37,059 nt of DNA from Simkania sp. GTDB lineage: Bacteria > Chlamydiota > Chlamydiia > Chlamydiales > Rhabdochlamydiaceae. Location of the stretch: the NCBI GenBank assembly GCA_018333475.1, contig JAGXTH010000065.1, forward strand, positions 1 through 37,059, given 5' to 3'. The notes beneath the pieces are model-generated. The model was not told the DNA's origin, made no database searches, and saw only the letters and a program-made list of their open reading frames with translations. Position 1 is the first letter of the stretch, and each line of letters starts with the position of its first letter. The position numbers and the translations under genes are program-made. This document shows positions 3,489 to 35,325 of this stretch, one piece after another.

Positions 3489-4394
3489 ATGCTCAACAAA
3501 TATGAATTAGAAAAAGTTCTCAAAAGTGGCGCATCTAATGTTGAAGCCGCCACAATTTTTGATTGTGGTGTGCGCACAATAGTGCGTGCCAGGAAAACTT
3601 TTGGTCTTGATCGTGGTTTCATCAGTCACGGCAATCATATCCTTAGTGACGTGCAAAATGAAATCCTCACGGCATGTCTATTGGGAGATGGTTACATCAA
3701 CTTTTCATCTAGAGGTCACTCTAGATTTGGTTTTGGGCAAGCGAAGCGAAGGCGAAAATATGTCGAATTTATAAATGAACTTCTCAAGCCATTATCAGTG
3801 ACGCCTTTTTTTGAAACTCGATTGGACCCAAGAGTAAAATCCGGGAAGAGTGAATCTTGGCGATTTTATACTCACGCAGATCACCAATTTACTGATCTTC
3901 GTGAGAAGTGGTATAACCCAGAAAAAAAGGTGCCGAGTTGGTTAAAATTGTCACCCCTTATCTTTTCTCATTGGTTTCTTCAAGATGGTTGCAATTCACC
4001 AGAAAAAAGAGCTTTGACTCTTGCAACAGATGCGTTTAGCAGAGCCGATGTGGAATTTCTACAAGAGCGACTCAGAACTGATCTAGAGTTGGTTTCTACA
4101 ATTCAAGGAAGCAAACAATTTCACTTAGCCATCGGTGCTTATGAATGTGAAAAGGCTTTATCCATGATAAGGCAATATAATAACTTTCGTTGCTTTCGAT
4201 ACAAGAATCGCTTCATCAAGAAGAAAAACCCAAATCTAGGTGCATCTAAACTTAACAAATCTATTGCAGAACAAATTAGAATCAAATGGAAGAATGGCGT
4301 TAAACCACCTTTGTTGGCCGAGGAATACGACGTGGGGGTTGTGTCCATCTACAATATCCTAAGCTATCGAACCTATGCTGTTACTTCAACATAA
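3489..4394 (+). CDS. Free-standing LAGLIDADG homing endonuclease
   Basis: A 301-residue protein with two LAGLIDADG-type helices: ILTACLLGDGYI at about 59-70 and PLIFSHWFLQDGC at about 156-168. Both contain the acidic Asp that binds the catalytic metal (LLGDG, LQDG). A helix-turn-helix-like segment lies at the N-terminus (ASNVEAATIFDCGVRTI) and another near the C-terminus (PPLLAEEYDVGVVSIYNIL), probably extra DNA-binding modules. Single-chain two-motif members of the family cut asymmetric sites of about 20 bp and spread their own gene. It is the only rightward gene in this operon. It is head-to-head with the 3398 gene, and its last 22 bases run antisense into the 3' end of the 4373-5014 gene. 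It is free-standing: no intron or intein surrounds it. Confidence 0.88.
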   Translation: MLNKYELEKVLKSGASNVEAATIFDCGVRTIVRARKTFGLDRGFISHGNHILSDVQNEILTACLLGDGYINFSSRGHSRFGFGQAKRRRKYVEFINELLKPLSVTPFFETRLDPRVKSGKSESWRFYTHADHQFTDLREKWYNPEKKVPSWLKLSPLIFSHWFLQDGCNSPEKRALTLATDAFSRADVEFLQERLRTDLELVSTIQGSKQFHLAIGAYECEKALSMIRQYNNFRCFRYKNRFIKKKNPNLGASKLNKSIAEQIRIKWKNGVKPPLLAEEYDVGVVSIYNILSYRTYAVTST

Positions 4395-6435: not shown

Positions 6436-6744
6436 TTATAGAGCGATCTGTAGTCTTCTGCCCGTTGGGCGAGGTTTGGGGTCACGCAGGGCCATTAGAG
6501 CCTGTCCTGAGCGTTCGACGGGGCTTCTGTGGGCTTTTAGCCAGTTATGGACAGCCAGATGATGTGGGTCACAGAGGGGCATGAGGTCTTCGAGGGGTTC
6601 GTTGCCGAGGTTTTTGTAAGTAATGTGATGGAGTTGGTAATGTTCATCGTGGCAAATCAAGCAATGTTGAGGTTTTTTGCTGAGTTGGTATTCAAGACGT
6701 TTTAATTGCCAAGCTGTGGATTGAATATAGCGGTGATAGTTCAC
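6436..6744 (-). CDS. HNH endonuclease
   Basis: 102 residues with a complete small HNH core: CLICHDEHYQLHHITY (CxxC, then the HH pair), NLGNEPLEDLMPLC (the Asn/Asp part) and the closing CDPHH. It has the size of small phage HNH proteins that assist terminase cutting or act as free-standing nickases. The start is a GTG at 6744 without a clear ribosome binding site. It sits immediately left of the candidate origin rather than beside the terminase genes, so either a packaging or a mobile-nuclease role is possible. Confidence 0.8.
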   Translation of the reverse strand: MNYHRYIQSTAWQLKRLEYQLSKKPQHCLICHDEHYQLHHITYKNLGNEPLEDLMPLCDPHHLAVHNWLKAHRSPVERSGQALMALRDPKPRPTGRRLQIAL

Positions 6745-10209: not shown

Positions 10210-12228
10210 ATGAATGAATTACAAATTGGCAAGGCTGGAGAATATCTTGTCTGTGCTGACTTAATTATGCAAGGGTATGTTGCATTCCCATCGGAACAAG
10301 GATTGCCATTTGATGTAGTCGTCGATGTGAATGGGAAGTTAATTAAGGTACAGGTGAAGACAACGCTGGAATATAAGCCCTTTAATGGCTGCATAGGTTA
10401 TGTTTACCATGTCAAACAATGCGGTAAACATGGAAGGCAAACTTATAGAACCCAAGATGTTGATATTTTTGCGCTTGTAGCTCTTGATAAACGGCTCATT
10501 GGTTATGCTCTACCTTCACAGATGAAGACAACCATGTTTTTTCGCATACCTGATTTTGTTTATCCGGCAGATAAGGCTCGGACTCAGCGTGTTGAGAGAG
10601 ATACTAGAATAAATGAATTAGTGAAATCGGGGATGCCTAAAAGAGATATAGACAGATTGCTTGGTCTTAGATTAGGAACAACATCAAACATTTTGGCGAA
10701 GCCCATAAACAATCACAAAAGAAACATGTTTGGAAAACGACAACTGGTAGTAAGAAAAGCTCCCGCCACCGATCCTCAATATGAACAGCGGCCCACGAGG
10801 ACAATTCGTCTACGGCCTCGCTGCTTAGCCCAAGCCCCTGAACAGATGCTCAAGATAAATCATGGAGCAGGCGGCATAGGTGACGCCCTGTTGGGCCTCA
10901 CGATTACTCGTGGCCTGCAAGCCCAAGGTTATCAAATTGCTTATGCAGTTTCTCCTCTGGCCCAACCCTTTGTAGCCCTTTTTGAGGGTTGCGATTTCTT
11001 GGCGGAACACAAGCATGACGCCAATCAAATTGAATATCCTGATGAGAACTTACAAATCAATGTCGGTTACACTATCGAATGCAAGGAAAAATGTGGCAAT
11101 GGGTTGATTCCAAGATGGAAGAGATACGCAGATAATCTGGAATACTCTGGAGAACCTATAATCCCAGAGTTAAGGGATCGGAGGGGGATTGAAGAGTTAG
11201 GGCTGTCTTTCAAAGACAAGGTAATTCTTGCCCCATTTTCCACCTGGGAAGCACGGGCTTGGCGTATCGAGAGTTGGCTGACGTTGAATCATTTGCTTCA
11301 ATCAAAAGGATATGAAACTGTCGTCATCAGCCAGAAGCATAAAAAGCTAGAGTTATTCAAAAATACAGAGATTGTGGAAGAGGCCACTGCCGCCAAGGTG
11401 GCGGGAGTTCTGCTTAACGCCGCAGCCTGTGTGGCCTGTGACTCGGGGATGAGCCACCTCGCAGGATTGCTTGGTACATCCTGCATCACCTTATGCGGAC
11501 AAACCACTGGAAAAGATATTTTTGGTTTGTATCCCAGCGTGAAAAGCATCCAAGGTTCTTTGTTGTGTAATGGATGCTGGTGGAACGAGCCGCCGTATGA
11601 CCATCATGCCTGTGGTCATTGCTGTGCGAATTTGCAATCAATTACACCAAGTCAAGTTTTGCACGAGATAGATCAGATTTGTTTGCCAAAATTTGCCAAG
11701 GACGAGGCGGTAATTTGTCGAGGAAAATTGGCGGTGGTTCGGGATTGTTTAATGGAAGTGAAACATCTGGAGGGGGATGTTGGGGAGTTTGGTGTCTATC
11801 GTGGGGGCGTGGCGGCGTTCATCCAGCATTACTTGCCAAACGATCAGCTTCATCTCTATGACACGTTCTGCGGTATGCCTTTTGGCGATAAACATCCTGG
11901 GGGTCGTCACCGAGCGGGAGATTTCGCAGGATGTAGCATGGAACAAGTGAAAAGTTTAGTCCCCAAGGCAAAATTATATCCAGGTGTCTTTCCCAATTAT
12001 GCGTTGCCGGATGTGAAATATAAGTTCACCCATCAGGATTTTGATCTTCAACAAAGTGCAGAAGCGGCTTTTGTCTATAGCAAACCGAGACAAGTTCCTG
12101 GTTCATTGATGTTGATCGACGATTTTGGATGGGAAAATTGTCCTGGCATAAAGGTAGCTGTGGCGAAATGTTTCCCAGGCTCCTCGATTGAGCGACCCTC
12201 GGAATATCAGGCACTTATCAGGTTTTAA
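10210..12228 (+). CDS. Three-domain fusion: PD-(D/E)XK nuclease, GT9-like glycosyltransferase, TylF-like methyltransferase
   Basis: 672 residues in one uninterrupted frame. Residues 1-125 resemble the PD-(D/E)XK nuclease of group I intron homing enzymes: GKAGEYLV (Glu11), PFDVVVD (Asp35) and KVQVKTT (Gln48, Lys50). Residues 133-162 form a helix-turn-helix-like linker. Residues 213-490 resemble GT9 (heptosyltransferase-like) enzymes: HGAGGIGDALL at the start of the first Rossmann domain, ACDSGMSHLAGLLG in the second, then a CxxC...CGHC cluster (453-471). Residues 505-672 resemble TylF/macrocin O-methyltransferases: VGEFGVYRGG (524-533), LYDTFCGMP, the HQDFD motif and LIDDFG (635-640, metal-binding acids). 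The last two domains suggest sugar transfer and O-methylation of a surface glycan. A nuclease joined to them is unexpected. AGAAAAGG lies 9 nt before the ATG. Confidence 0.8.
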   Translation: MNELQIGKAGEYLVCADLIMQGYVAFPSEQGLPFDVVVDVNGKLIKVQVKTTLEYKPFNGCIGYVYHVKQCGKHGRQTYRTQDVDIFALVALDKRLIGYALPSQMKTTMFFRIPDFVYPADKARTQRVERDTRINELVKSGMPKRDIDRLLGLRLGTTSNILAKPINNHKRNMFGKRQLVVRKAPATDPQYEQRPTRTIRLRPRCLAQAPEQMLKINHGAGGIGDALLGLTITRGLQAQGYQIAYAVSPLAQPFVALFEGCDFLAEHKHDANQIEYPDENLQINVGYTIECKEKCGNGLIPRWKRYADNLEYSGEPIIPELRDRRGIEELGLSFKDKVILAPFSTWEARAWRIESWLTLNHLLQSKGYETVVISQKHKKLELFKNTEIVEEATAAKVAGVLLNAAACVACDSGMSHLAGLLGTSCITLCGQTTGKDIFGLYPSVKSIQGSLLCNGCWWNEPPYDHHACGHCCANLQSITPSQVLHEIDQICLPKFAKDEAVICRGKLAVVRDCLMEVKHLEGDVGEFGVYRGGVAAFIQHYLPNDQLHLYDTFCGMPFGDKHPGGRHRAGDFAGCSMEQVKSLVPKAKLYPGVFPNYALPDVKYKFTHQDFDLQQSAEAAFVYSKPRQVPGSLMLIDDFGWENCPGIKVAVAKCFPGSSIERPSEYQALIRF

Positions 12229-20275: not shown

Positions 20276-20351
20276 AGTTATCTCCATTGTCCTGATTGAA
20301 CATTTGATCTAGAATATGTAGTCGCTTAGAAAAGAATTTTTGGAGATCAAA

Positions 20352-21095
20352 ATGCCCAAGATCAAATTTATTGAATATCGAGGCGAATCTAGAACAATCA
20401 GAGATTGGGCAAAATTAAAGGGCATCAAGCCTGCCACAATTGCCTATAGATTAAGAAATGGCTGGCCGATAGAAGATGCCTTAAATCTGGACTTGCACTC
20501 AGGAAAAAAGATGAAGCATGGAAACTGGAAATTTCATCGAAAAGAATATAAGACTTGGCATGGAATGTTGGAAAGATGCACCGATCCAGAGCGATACCAT
20601 TGCCAAAAAGGCATCAAAGTCCTATACAAGGATTTCGATGAATTCTTTCAGGACGTTGGTTCCTCACCCAGCCCTAGACATCAAATAGACAGAATTGATA
20701 ATGATGGTCACTACGAAAAGGGGAATTGCCGCTGGGCAACGGCAAAACAAAATAATGATAATAGAAGCAACACTGTCATCGTAACCTATGGAGGAATTAC
20801 GAAACTTTTAGTCGAATGGGCAAAAGAGCTTAATCTTAATTACATGACTACATTAAATCGTTTTAACAAGGGTTGGCCTCTAGAAAAAGTATTTGCGCCT
20901 AGAATGACGATTAAAGACCCACTTGTCACATTTCATGGAGAAACAAAGACCATTGCACAATGGGCCAAGGAAAGAGGAATTCATTATGTAACTCTAAGAA
21001 CTCGATTGTTGCGATATGGCTGGTCAGTCGAAGACGCCATGAATCAAAAACTAATTCAAGGTCAAAAACATCACAAACACGGCAACTCTTCCTGA
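20352..21095 (+). CDS. HNH-like homing endonuclease with three DNA-binding repeats
   Basis: 247 residues from the ATG at 20352 (GGAG 6 nt upstream). The core (about 67-140) has TWHGMLERC, then GIKVLYKDFDEFFQDVG, QIDRIDNDGHY and NCRWATAKQNNDNRSN, the signature of a phage homing-nuclease family with a treble-clef HNH-like fold. Around it are three copies of a helix-turn-helix module with a (T)I-x-x-W-A-K pattern: residues 5-45 (RTIRDWAKLKGI), 143-184 (VEWAKELNLNY) and 190-233 (KTIAQWAKERGI), each ending GWxxEDA/EKV. They probably track along the target DNA. It is inserted rightward between the tail tube and joining genes and overlaps the latter tail-to-tail by 25 bp. Confidence 0.82.
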   Translation: MPKIKFIEYRGESRTIRDWAKLKGIKPATIAYRLRNGWPIEDALNLDLHSGKKMKHGNWKFHRKEYKTWHGMLERCTDPERYHCQKGIKVLYKDFDEFFQDVGSSPSPRHQIDRIDNDGHYEKGNCRWATAKQNNDNRSNTVIVTYGGITKLLVEWAKELNLNYMTTLNRFNKGWPLEKVFAPRMTIKDPLVTFHGETKTIAQWAKERGIHYVTLRTRLLRYGWSVEDAMNQKLIQGQKHHKHGNSS

Positions 21096-32470: not shown

Positions 32471-32655
32471 TACCAAATCCTTAAATGTCCCACAACCTCG
32501 AAGAGAGCGTCATTATTGACATTACACCAACTATCAGCTTTTTGTTTCTTATCTATTGGTTTCGGCTGGGCTTTTGGCTTTTTCCCACGTTTCTTGGTCT
32601 TGGGTTCAGGAGGCTGTCCCTTCTTCCACAATCTATCAAATATCTCCGTCATCAT
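32470..32655 (-). CDS. Small basic protein between terminase and portal
   Basis: 61 residues with a Lys/Pro-rich centre (PKTKKRGKKPKAQPKPIDKKQK), so it probably binds nucleic acid or disordered partners. Its start overlaps the terminase end by 20 bp, and its stop overlaps the portal start (TAATG). No recognised family. Confidence 0.5.
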   Translation of the reverse strand: MMTEIFDRLWKKGQPPEPKTKKRGKKPKAQPKPIDKKQKADSWCNVNNDALFEVVGHLRIW

Positions 32656-34783
32656 CTCTCCTCATTGCTTGTTTACGTTCTAGATGTAGAACAAGGTAGC
32701 GCAATCCGTCGCAGTTCTTCACCAGAATATCATTGGCATAATACTCATCACCATCTCCGACAGTGATGTTATATACATCATGCCGACTTTTTAGGTGTTC
32801 GATTTTGATGATATGCGGCATCTGGGCCTCGCCTACGGTGTCTTGCTTTGCAATTTTGATGGCAGAATCTTCCATGCTTGCTATGAGCTTCGTATGTTCT
32901 TCCACAGCAATCACATTGTTTGGAGGTAATTGTTTTTCCGAAGCGACATTTTTTGGCATGTTTTCGGTGCCATTCCAGTCCTGCTGCCGAGCCGTGCCAT
33001 TTAGAAGCAAGCGGACGGATTGTTTCGAGGAGTTTCCGATTGGCACGCTTCTGCTTTTCGGTTCGGGGATGTCTTCTGAAATGCTCCGTGGGACTAACGC
33101 ATTCGAGATTTTGGATTGAATTGTTTGCTGGGTCGCCGTCCTTGTGATGAATATGCCATCCTTTGGGGATGATCCCTCGCTTTTCTTCCCAGACAACCCG
33201 ATGTAAATATCTTGGTTTTCCTTGCCAGCCTTCGGATTTGAAGTATTTTCTGTCAGCCTCGTTTGAAGACTCTGGGTAACGTCTGTATTTGACGCCTTTG
33301 TATATTTTTGTTTCACGCATACTCTATCATAGTATCGCAAAGCATCAATTCGACAGAAATCTTTACCTTCTGCCCAAACAGGATGGTCGGGGGTGCCCGT
33401 CAGGGTGTGACCATTTGACAAAGTAATTTGCATTACACAAGCATTTTTTTGAGTAAGAGCTATTGCAGTGATGGGCTTGTAGCCACTTCTTGTTAAGGCG
33501 AGGTCATGCAATTTCAAATCAACAAGGGTTTTTGGTCCTTCAATTGTGTCAATCAGAGTTTCTCCAATAAGACAGGCGTGGTCTTTTTGCCCATTCATCG
33601 GCTTATTTCCCACTGCATTCCCATCCTCGCCAGTCAAATATCTATACGTCAAAAATTCGCTGTGTAAGTTCGGACAACATTCAGTCACAATCTTCAATTT
33701 GCCACGTCTTATTCGAGCTTGTACCAAACTAATTCCCAAAGAAATGCTCTCCGGCCCCTTGAGTGCTGGCTTGGCATTCACGCCTAATTTTCTTAAAGCA
33801 AGAATTGCATTCTTTTGATGATCGCAAGTCCACAACCTGATTTTATCGCCAGTAGCTTCCTTAAATTTCTTCTCAAAGCCAGTAATGCTGTCAAACAACT
33901 CTAGAATGTCACCAGGAGCATAATGCTCGTGAATTATCCACAGGCAGTCATCGTAATCAATTAGCCCTAAGAGCCAACAATGAGGGTCGGTGCCGCCAAA
34001 ATCTACCGCCGCTACATATTGTGCTGCCTCTGGCAACCCTTCGTCAGGCATATCCACAAAACAACTCTTCCCATTGGCATCTACTGGATCATAAACCAAC
34101 CCTGGCATCTTCGAGAATTTGCCCTCGAAATTCATCTCAAATTCCCAAGTTGGCATTTCCTTTCTAGCCTTCTCGATGAGTGTCATATCGCTGGCTGGAT
34201 TTAGCCAGGAAGGAAAGACTCGATAGAAATAATTTTTATCACCGTTATCAGCAGCAGCCATTATTTTTGTTTTAAGCCAATCATACTTCATATAAGGTGT
34301 TGAACTCAAAAAGATTCTGGCTCCTTTGCGATTAACTAATCTTCCCTCGACTGTTTTGAGCGTCGAATAGGGACAGTTCCCACATTCGTCTATCCACCCT
34401 GAGTCGGCTTTTATTCCTTCATAATCCGCTTCTGCGGATCGGAAGTAGATAACACCACCACCAGGGAGTTTATACTCGTGCAAGCCGCTCGTGCCTTGAT
34501 AAGCAGTCCCTTGTAAAGTCTTCTCTAAAGCAGTTTTTGTCGCCTTTGTAACAACATCGAATGTACTGGCAACCACCAAATGTGTGCCTTTGCCCTTGAG
34601 CTTCTCTATTTCTCTGAGTTGCCATAGGGCGGCACACGCTGATTTGCCGCCATTTTTGCCTCCTATAGCGGCAATAATTCTGGCCTCTGATTGCAAACAA
34701 TCAAATTGCCCCTCGTGAACTGGAAAGTATTTGTTTGTGATGCCATTCTCATCAATGAAAAGATCGCCCCAATTCAATGTCAT
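32636..34783 (-). CDS. terL: Terminase large subunit with an intein
   Basis: The 715-residue precursor would splice to a 428-residue terminase. The ATPase has Walker A GGKNGGKSA (about 41-49) and Walker B GWIDE (129-133). The nuclease has AVDFGG (Asp261), TCDHQKN (Asp321) and the last motif DHACDGLRY, which is split by the intein: residues 401-403 (DHA) lie before it and 691-715 (CDGLRY...) after it. The third catalytic acid is therefore only brought into place by splicing. The gene starts in an ATGA overlap with the small terminase gene. The enzyme cuts concatemers and drives DNA into the head. Intein residues 404-690 are described separately. Confidence 0.88.
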   Translation of the reverse strand: MTLNWGDLFIDENGITNKYFPVHEGQFDCLQSEARIIAAIGGKNGGKSACAALWQLREIEKLKGKGTHLVVASTFDVVTKATKTALEKTLQGTAYQGTSGLHEYKLPGGGVIYFRSAEADYEGIKADSGWIDECGNCPYSTLKTVEGRLVNRKGARIFLSSTPYMKYDWLKTKIMAAADNGDKNYFYRVFPSWLNPASDMTLIEKARKEMPTWEFEMNFEGKFSKMPGLVYDPVDANGKSCFVDMPDEGLPEAAQYVAAVDFGGTDPHCWLLGLIDYDDCLWIIHEHYAPGDILELFDSITGFEKKFKEATGDKIRLWTCDHQKNAILALRKLGVNAKPALKGPESISLGISLVQARIRRGKLKIVTECCPNLHSEFLTYRYLTGEDGNAVGNKPMNGQKDHACLIGETLIDTIEGPKTLVDLKLHDLALTRSGYKPITAIALTQKNACVMQITLSNGHTLTGTPDHPVWAEGKDFCRIDALRYYDRVCVKQKYTKASNTDVTQSLQTRLTENTSNPKAGKENQDIYIGLSGKKSEGSSPKDGIFITRTATQQTIQSKISNALVPRSISEDIPEPKSRSVPIGNSSKQSVRLLLNGTARQQDWNGTENMPKNVASEKQLPPNNVIAVEEHTKLIASMEDSAIKIAKQDTVGEAQMPHIIKIEHLKSRHDVYNITVGDGDEYYANDILVKNCDGLRYLVLHLERKQAMRRDDDGDI
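32714..33574 (-). other. Intein in the terminase nuclease motif
   Basis: 287 residues. It starts with Cys (CLIGETLIDTIEGPKTLVDL, block A), has block B (LSNGHTLTGTPDHPVW with TPDH) at about 52-67, and ends with blocks F and G (HDVYNITVGDGDEYYANDI then LVKN) before the +1 Cys. The last residue is Asn, as required for cyclisation, but the next-to-last is Lys instead of the usual His. Residues about 90-260 between the splicing blocks contain no LAGLIDADG or HNH motif in this frame: they are polar and low in structure. The HNH nuclease gene lies over exactly this part in another frame. Confidence 0.83.
32778..33320 (-). CDS. HNH homing endonuclease nested out of frame inside the intein
   Basis: 180 residues, same strand as the terminase but in another reading frame, lying wholly within the intein. 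LHRVVWEEKRGIIPKGWHIHHKDGDPANN with SIQNLECVSPTEH (residues 39-80) is a full HNH_3-type nuclease core (His40, His58-His59, Asn67, His80). A C-terminal CDCCG...CHQNC element (136-157) should bind zinc. The ATG at 33320 has only a weak GATAGAG before it. The stop at 32778 lies inside the codons of intein block F. The frame of the intein stays open for all 180 codons, so both proteins can be made. It may spread the intein by cutting empty terminase genes. Confidence 0.85.
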   Translation of the reverse strand: MRETKIYKGVKYRRYPESSNEADRKYFKSEGWQGKPRYLHRVVWEEKRGIIPKGWHIHHKDGDPANNSIQNLECVSPTEHFRRHPRTEKQKRANRKLLETIRPLASKWHGSAAGLEWHRKHAKKCRFGKTITSKQCDCCGRTYEAHSKHGRFCHQNCKARHRRRGPDAAYHQNRTPKKSA

Positions 34784-35325
34784 TTGGCCTCGATTGTGAG
34801 TGGTTGTGGTTGTTTGTTTCCAACCACAAAAGCCACGCTGGCTACCGTTTGGTTTTGTTGCTCGTCCAATTCGACCAATGTTCCAGATGGGAAGAACTTC
34901 TCGAATTGAAGGAAGAACTTCATCGCATTGCCCAAGCGACCCGAATGAATATATTCCCTCATTTCTTCATCTACTTTTGGCATTCCGTGTCGAGCAAATG
35001 CCTCGAAGAGAGTTCTTACGGCTGCGATCCTAATCGGACCCATTTTTTTGTCGTAGTTAAAAATCGCTGTGGGAATATCGGCATCAGCCCTGGCGACGTG
35101 ATCCTCTGGCAATGCTCCTACAGCCAAACATGAGCTACTGATTTTGCCGGTATAAAGAACCTGATCCATTGAGGTATATTGACCGGCATCATACTTGCCA
35201 AGCCGAGTAATCAATGTGCCCTTCTTAATGCCAAGTTCCTTGGACCACTCGGATATAGTCAGCTTCTTACCGTTGTGTTCCAAAACACGATGGTAAGGCA
35301 TATTGTAATGTGTTTTCCCAGCCAT
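34780..35325 (-). CDS. terS: Terminase small subunit with a homing-nuclease-type DNA-binding domain
   Basis: 181 residues. Residues 14-62 (LEHNGKKLTISEWSKELGI followed by KKGTLITRLGKYDAGQYT) form a helix-turn-helix module. The same W-S/A-K-E-x-G-I and T-L-x-x-R-L pattern occurs three times in the homing endonuclease at 20352. The rest is helical (GPIRIAAVRTLFEAFARHG, YIHSGRLGNAMKFFLQF) and fits the oligomerisation core of small terminases. It starts overlapping the fibre-gene stop (TAATG) and ends overlapping the large-subunit start (ATGA). It should recognise the packaging site. Confidence 0.62.
   Translation of the reverse strand: MAGKTHYNMPYHRVLEHNGKKLTISEWSKELGIKKGTLITRLGKYDAGQYTSMDQVLYTGKISSSCLAVGALPEDHVARADADIPTAIFNYDKKMGPIRIAAVRTLFEAFARHGMPKVDEEMREYIHSGRLGNAMKFFLQFEKFFPSGTLVELDEQQNQTVASVAFVVGNKQPQPLTIEAK

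Follow-up and report, generated by a model that had tools for sequence, protein, structure and literature searches.

The stretch of DNA analysed here (37,059 nucleotides, hereafter the window) is part of a 1.9-Mb metagenome-assembled genome and contains phage genes for portal, capsid and terminase. On its reverse strand the gene for the terminase large subunit (terL) carries an intein, and an intact 180-codon HNH endonuclease ORF lies within the intein coding sequence, on the same strand but in another frame; both ORFs are located where an earlier note on this DNA had placed them. The features of the locus are listed below, the two extein assignments being readings of the sequence.

32636 to 34783, reverse strand: terminase large subunit ORF with the intein inside, 715 aa (PHROG terminase large subunit, 3e-28; Pfam Terminase_6N and Intein_splicing).
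33575 to 34783, reverse strand: terminase N-extein, 403 aa.
32714 to 33574, reverse strand: intein, 287 aa, from Cys1 (33574) to Asn287 (32714), followed by Cys+1 (C1, T61, H64 and N287 invariant in 24 members; best PDB match the gp41-1 intein).
33305 to 33574, reverse strand: N-terminal splicing region of the intein, blocks A and B, residues 1-90 (pLDDT about 90-98).
32831 to 33304, reverse strand: intein-frame linker, residues 91-248, whose DNA is also most of the HNH gene (predicted disordered, pLDDT below 50).
32714 to 32824, reverse strand: C-terminal splicing region of the intein, blocks F and G, residues 251-287 (pLDDT above 90).
32639 to 32713, reverse strand: terminase C-extein, its first residues being the nuclease-domain motif CDGLRY.
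32778 to 33320, reverse strand: HNH endonuclease gene, 180 aa, with an HNH_3 core and a C-terminal Cys4 zinc finger (Pfam HNH_3; I-HmuI profile match; AlphaFold2 mean pLDDT 90.6).
32778 to 32780, reverse strand: HNH stop codon TGA, written by the His-Asp codons (CAT GAT) of the intein, residues 265-266, at or just before the start of block F.

The residues that identify an intein, C1, T61 and H64 (the TxxH motif of block B), N287 and C+1, are all present in the window and are conserved in the relatives described below, where Cys1 occurs in 86 of 86 complete N ends, TxxH in 85 of 88, and the +1 residue is Cys, Ser or Thr. The Pfam Intein_splicing match in the terminase frame (1.4e-8) is slightly under the gathering score, and the penultimate residue of the intein is Lys, a position at which His is commoner, which counts against a splicing intein. 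The AlphaFold2 model of the intein, based on 24 intein sequences, is of high confidence at residues 1-90 and 251-287, while residues 91-248 score below 50. Comparison of the model with Foldseek returned the gp41-1 intein with a TM-score of 0.89 on the target, identifying a predicted HINT fold. The window intein is encoded by one ORF, in contrast to six related loci in which its halves are in separate ORFs. It also differs from a canonical intein, in which the endonuclease is in frame with the splicing blocks, as the HNH occupies a different frame, the in-frame linker is predicted to be disordered, and no relatives with the HNH in frame were found.

The HNH ORF lies in the −1/+2 frame relative to the terminase ORF and is wholly contained within the intein. 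Its start coincides with intein residue 85, where the N-terminal splicing region ends, and, as the earlier note had it, its stop falls in the block F region; in most relatives the distance from the end of the HNH to that of the intein is near-fixed, often exactly 19 aa. In its own frame the protein matches Pfam HNH_3 at 8.4e-18, and nearly the same DNA that encodes the linker, predicted to be disordered, yields a confidently predicted fold. The HNH_3 profile, the invariance of H40, H58, H59, N67, N71 and H80, and the conservation of the zinc-binding cysteines among relatives place the protein in the HNH_3, I-HmuI-like class. The nearest solved structure is that of I-HmuI (PDB 1u3e), with a profile match of 7.5e-4, although the fold match to it is weak (E 0.03, 19% identity).

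Other ORFs in the window are of note. The ORF at 3489-4391 (forward strand) encodes a LAGLIDADG_2 endonuclease (2.6e-22), a second homing-type nuclease, and is flanked on both sides by phage genes of the opposite strand. Inspection by eye revealed similar short motifs, RTIRDWAKLKGIKPATIAYRL and LTISEWSKELGIKKGTLITRL, at 20340-21092 (forward) and 34783-35325 (reverse), respectively; the latter ORF immediately precedes terL and might encode a small terminase subunit whose DNA-binding part resembles that of homing nucleases. A short ORF at 6439-6744 (reverse) displays an HNH-like pattern, CLICHDEHYQLHHITYKNL...PLCDPHH, without a Pfam match, and a 672-aa ORF at 10210-12225 (forward) combines a PD-(D/E)XK_5 nuclease, a family 9 glycosyltransferase and a TylF methyltransferase, which is odd for a phage.

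Relatives were gathered by tblastn in phage records and by scans of IMG/VR, and the loci were classified with three profiles (IntN, IntC and HNH), the HNH searches being independent of frame. The same layout was found in Tetrasphaera phage TJE1, Acinetobacter phage Highwayman, a Rhodobacteraceae phage and many uncultivated viruses. The non-redundant census comprises 154 contiguous terminase-intein ORFs over an HNH in the frame relation of the window, a few of which lack a detected IntN or IntC match (in some cases owing to a truncated contig or a diverged block), and 8 with the HNH in the other frame. The pattern that the earlier note had proposed to look for in related inteins, an out-of-frame HNH kept over an open linker frame, therefore occurs in at least 162 contiguous viral loci. 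A further 6 loci contain a split intein and 9 a free-standing HNH, while an in-frame HNH of the same family was found neither in this census nor in the intein-only searches. In the whole-intein search, the ranking of which favours full-length inteins, an overprinted HNH was present in 78 of 80 loci, three of these being remnants only, and the other two were mini-inteins of 130 and 140 aa. The IntN-only search, free of this bias but covering one part of the family, returned an overprinted HNH in 56 of 57 resolvable non-redundant loci, the exception being a 127-aa mini-intein; here a closer sequence set was used, since the mixed IntN alignment was too diverged. A viral-contig search with the whole terminase as query and a search of 76 related genomes gave no matches, and a scan of genome contigs recovered one locus, in the split form. 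Among the matches listed in 50,697 phage records, TJE1 is the only actinobacterial phage with this HNH family. The other-frame (+1) group consists of L076, L087, L090, L092, L099, L114, L117 and L118; its members have about 10 stops per locus to avoid, and the group adjoins the split-intein group in the HNH tree. One terminase ORF (L074, 1015-4248) is interrupted by two inteins, both of which enclose an out-of-frame HNH of their own.

The inteins are inserted at the TerL nuclease motif H|xDALRY, the exact position varying by a few residues among relatives. An empty site is provided by the uninterrupted terminase of L056, which is 65% identical to that of L095 and has an HNH just downstream. 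The HNH is likewise free-standing beside an intact terL in L002, L008, L026, L082, L126 and L127, and in phages FBPa53 and Poludnitsa; it lies between the halves of a split intein in L007 (Lactobacillus phage CL2), L009, L021, L023, L043 and L045; and it is reduced to a remnant in L162, L180, L186 and Brochothrix phage BL3. The inteins of L186, L180 and L162 are shortened to 155, 184 and 214 aa, respectively, and resemble steps towards a mini-intein. The deposited genomes of CL2 and BL3 (L213) both have a fractured terminase gene containing a split intein; the C-terminal piece carries no annotation in CL2 and is named gp3 in BL3. In the HNH tree, which is arbitrarily rooted, the overprinted label requires at least 7 state changes on well-supported branches, and thus the free, split and overprinted arrangements have interconverted.

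That the HNH always occurs in or beside terL is also what would be expected of a packaging cofactor of the terminase, akin to HK97 gp74, and some phages do employ HNH proteins in cos cleavage (PMC10448857). A packaging role in place of homing is nevertheless improbable: the family is HNH_3 with I-HmuI as its nearest structure, the gene is found inside inteins at one motif, and it is subject to decay and loss, as the remnants and the mini-inteins devoid of an HNH illustrate.

Translation of the HNH from its own start codon is suggested by the sequences upstream of it. Shine-Dalgarno (SD)-like 4-mers precede 56% of HNH starts compared with 27% of other ATGs in the same ORFs (p 4e-8), and SD-like 5-mers precede 29% and 7%, respectively (p 4e-9); the start in the window itself has no clear SD motif upstream. 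In addition, the free-standing HNH of Acinetobacter phage BP10 has the same N-terminal Met as the overprinted proteins. Since the HNH most often lies in the −1 frame with respect to terL, the nuclease might instead be made by programmed −1 frameshifting, generating a terminase-IntN-HNH fusion. This mechanism is quite unlikely and was rejected. In most loci the HNH frame is closed by stops immediately before its start codon, and a canonical slippery heptamer is present in no more than 6 of 76 loci. The excess of SD motifs ahead of the HNH also speaks against it, as do the +1 frame of the HNH in a second clade and the shared starting Met of the free-standing relatives.

The probability that such a frame stays open by chance was given in the earlier note as 2 in 10,000, a value that does not hold as it was derived from the wrong null (uniform codons). 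With the HNH protein fixed and synonymous codons drawn from local codon use, P is about 0.10, with about 2 stops expected in the host frame of the window compared with about 13 in the other alternative frame. The host frame is easily open because stops arise only where the HNH codons read xTA|A/G or xTG|A, and polar HNH proteins are poor in such residues. A single locus is thus weak evidence, and the relatives had to decide. The comparative data lift the overlap far above chance: in the main frame relation no host-frame stop was observed against 284 expected over 87 overprinted loci, in the other-frame group none against 85 over 8 loci, and with both relations pooled none against about 370 over 95 overlaps. 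Conversely, stops in the corresponding frame are near expectation in both the split (mean 5.8 vs 6.7) and the free-standing relatives (mean 5.8 vs 6.4). An internal Met codon followed by a codon starting with A, a pair that would write TGA in the host frame, is missing from the HNHs in the window's frame (0 of 177), whereas the other groups display 33 of 81.

Codon-level selection, which the earlier note had suggested following in both frames, acts very differently on the two products. HNH-changing substitutions are strongly disfavoured, with a dNN/dSN of 0.19 (0.15-0.23) in independent close pairs, 0.17 in the other-frame clade and 0.17-0.28 overall. By contrast, constraint on the linker is weak or absent, the dNN/dNS of 0.57-0.86 differing by pair set and reaching 1.0-1.6 in the other-frame clade; the linker frame may not be wholly passive, given the value of 0.57 in one pair set, and with such differences the linker ratios carry little weight. 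The purifying selection on the HNH codons, together with the invariance, even between highly diverged members, of the residues for catalysis and zinc binding, makes it most unlikely that the HNH frame is a relic or a chance ORF without a product, although a few inteins (L162, L180 and L186) do retain remnants only.

The frames of the HNH and the intein differ by one base on each side and the window derives from a metagenome-assembled genome, so that a sequencing or assembly indel might have displaced what is really an ordinary in-frame intein domain; an indel, or homologues with the HNH in frame, was the alternative that the earlier note had set against its own reading. The explanation is next to impossible and was rejected: it needs two compensating errors, the same layout occurs in 162 non-redundant loci including the deposited phage genomes TJE1 and Highwayman, none of the relatives has the HNH in frame, and host-frame stops are depleted only where the intein is contiguous. 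Phage introns often carry HNH endonucleases, but the proposal that the insert is a group I intron with an HNH is next to impossible and was dismissed, as the host frame is open throughout, all the intein splicing blocks and the HINT fold are present, and no Rfam match, such as to an intron RNA core, occurs in the window.

Sequence comparisons and structural models thus make it very probable that the locus encodes a splicing-competent terL mini-intein with a double-coded, disordered linker and a separately translated I-HmuI-like (HNH_3) homing endonuclease. Ribosomes translating terL would produce a precursor that self-splices to release active terminase, while a second initiation event at the internal start codon, one frame over, would generate the free 180-aa HNH. 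Where terL lacks the intein, the nuclease would cleave it at the conserved nuclease motif (H|xDALRY), and the cut gene would acquire a copy of the intein together with the HNH gene nested in it; homing is suggested by the class of the HNH, the insertion pattern and the differences in presence and absence between relatives. The view of the earlier note that splicing and homing are uncoupled gains support from four features, the purifying selection in the HNH frame, the weak or absent constraint on linker residues, a linker frame that is always free of stops and the SD motifs enriched at the HNH start, and is probably right.

More tentatively, the relatives may form a widespread viral intein class in which homing and splicing are entangled and overprinting protects a selfish nuclease from decay, a reading that is possible rather than probable. 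As the nuclease shares its bases with the open frame of an essential gene, indels in the nuclease would destroy the terminase, and the overprint would thereby shield it. Such protection, if real, would explain the retention of the HNH in 56 of 57 inteins of the clade, and the loci would be a natural counterpart of engineered gene entanglement. The group is large and environmentally common, with one DNA segment of an essential phage gene specifying two proteins, each with its own fold. It also provides a large natural data set on gene overlap, one frame encoding a fold and the other for the most part having to remain open, with the split and free-standing forms as built-in controls. With these loci one can ask directly whether a homing nuclease is kept from decaying by its overlap, and how the free-standing, split and nested forms change into one another.

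Inteins are usually described as a single protein comprising a splicing part and an in-frame nuclease. The window intein resembles canonical large inteins of the PI-SceI type in having blocks A, B, F and G with an endonuclease coded between B and F; the endonuclease, however, is in another frame, and thus splicing and homing would reside in separate proteins. In the fractured genes reportedly described by Dassa et al. in 2009, a homing endonuclease gene lies between the halves of a split intein. There too the endonuclease is a separate protein, and the six split relatives (CL2 among them) show that layout with the same HNH, whereas the window intein is one uninterrupted polypeptide and its HNH is overprinted rather than intergenic. 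I-HmuI (PDB 1u3e) is borne by a group I intron, while the HNH described here is nested in an intein. The insertion site, at the TerL nuclease motif, is distinct from that of the mycobacteriophage terminase inteins, which are in the ATPase domain (Kelley et al. 2016, PMC5050341). Inteins of ‘non-canonical architecture’ in actinobacteriophages are the subject of a preprint (bioRxiv 2025.01.02.630785) that PMC11855218 cites; its title suggests unusual intein-endonuclease layouts, possibly similar inteins with out-of-frame endonucleases, and priority is uncertain. The literature search for hidden out-of-frame HNHs, which covered that preprint by its title, returned only cases of the ShiLan type. 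In ShiLan (2025, PMC11855218) an out-of-frame HNH with zinc fingers is hidden in an insertion within a phage methylase, and the insertion has no splicing domain, being neither intein nor intron; a phage gene with a hidden HNH in another frame thus has a published precedent, in that instance without an intein. By layout alone the two systems are alike, each having an out-of-frame zinc-finger HNH that is thought to home and an insertion free of stops in the host frame. The translation start is unexplained in ShiLan, whereas relatives of the window locus show an excess of SD motifs ahead of the HNH, and, in contrast to the ShiLan methylase, the host frame here is a full intein in an essential gene.
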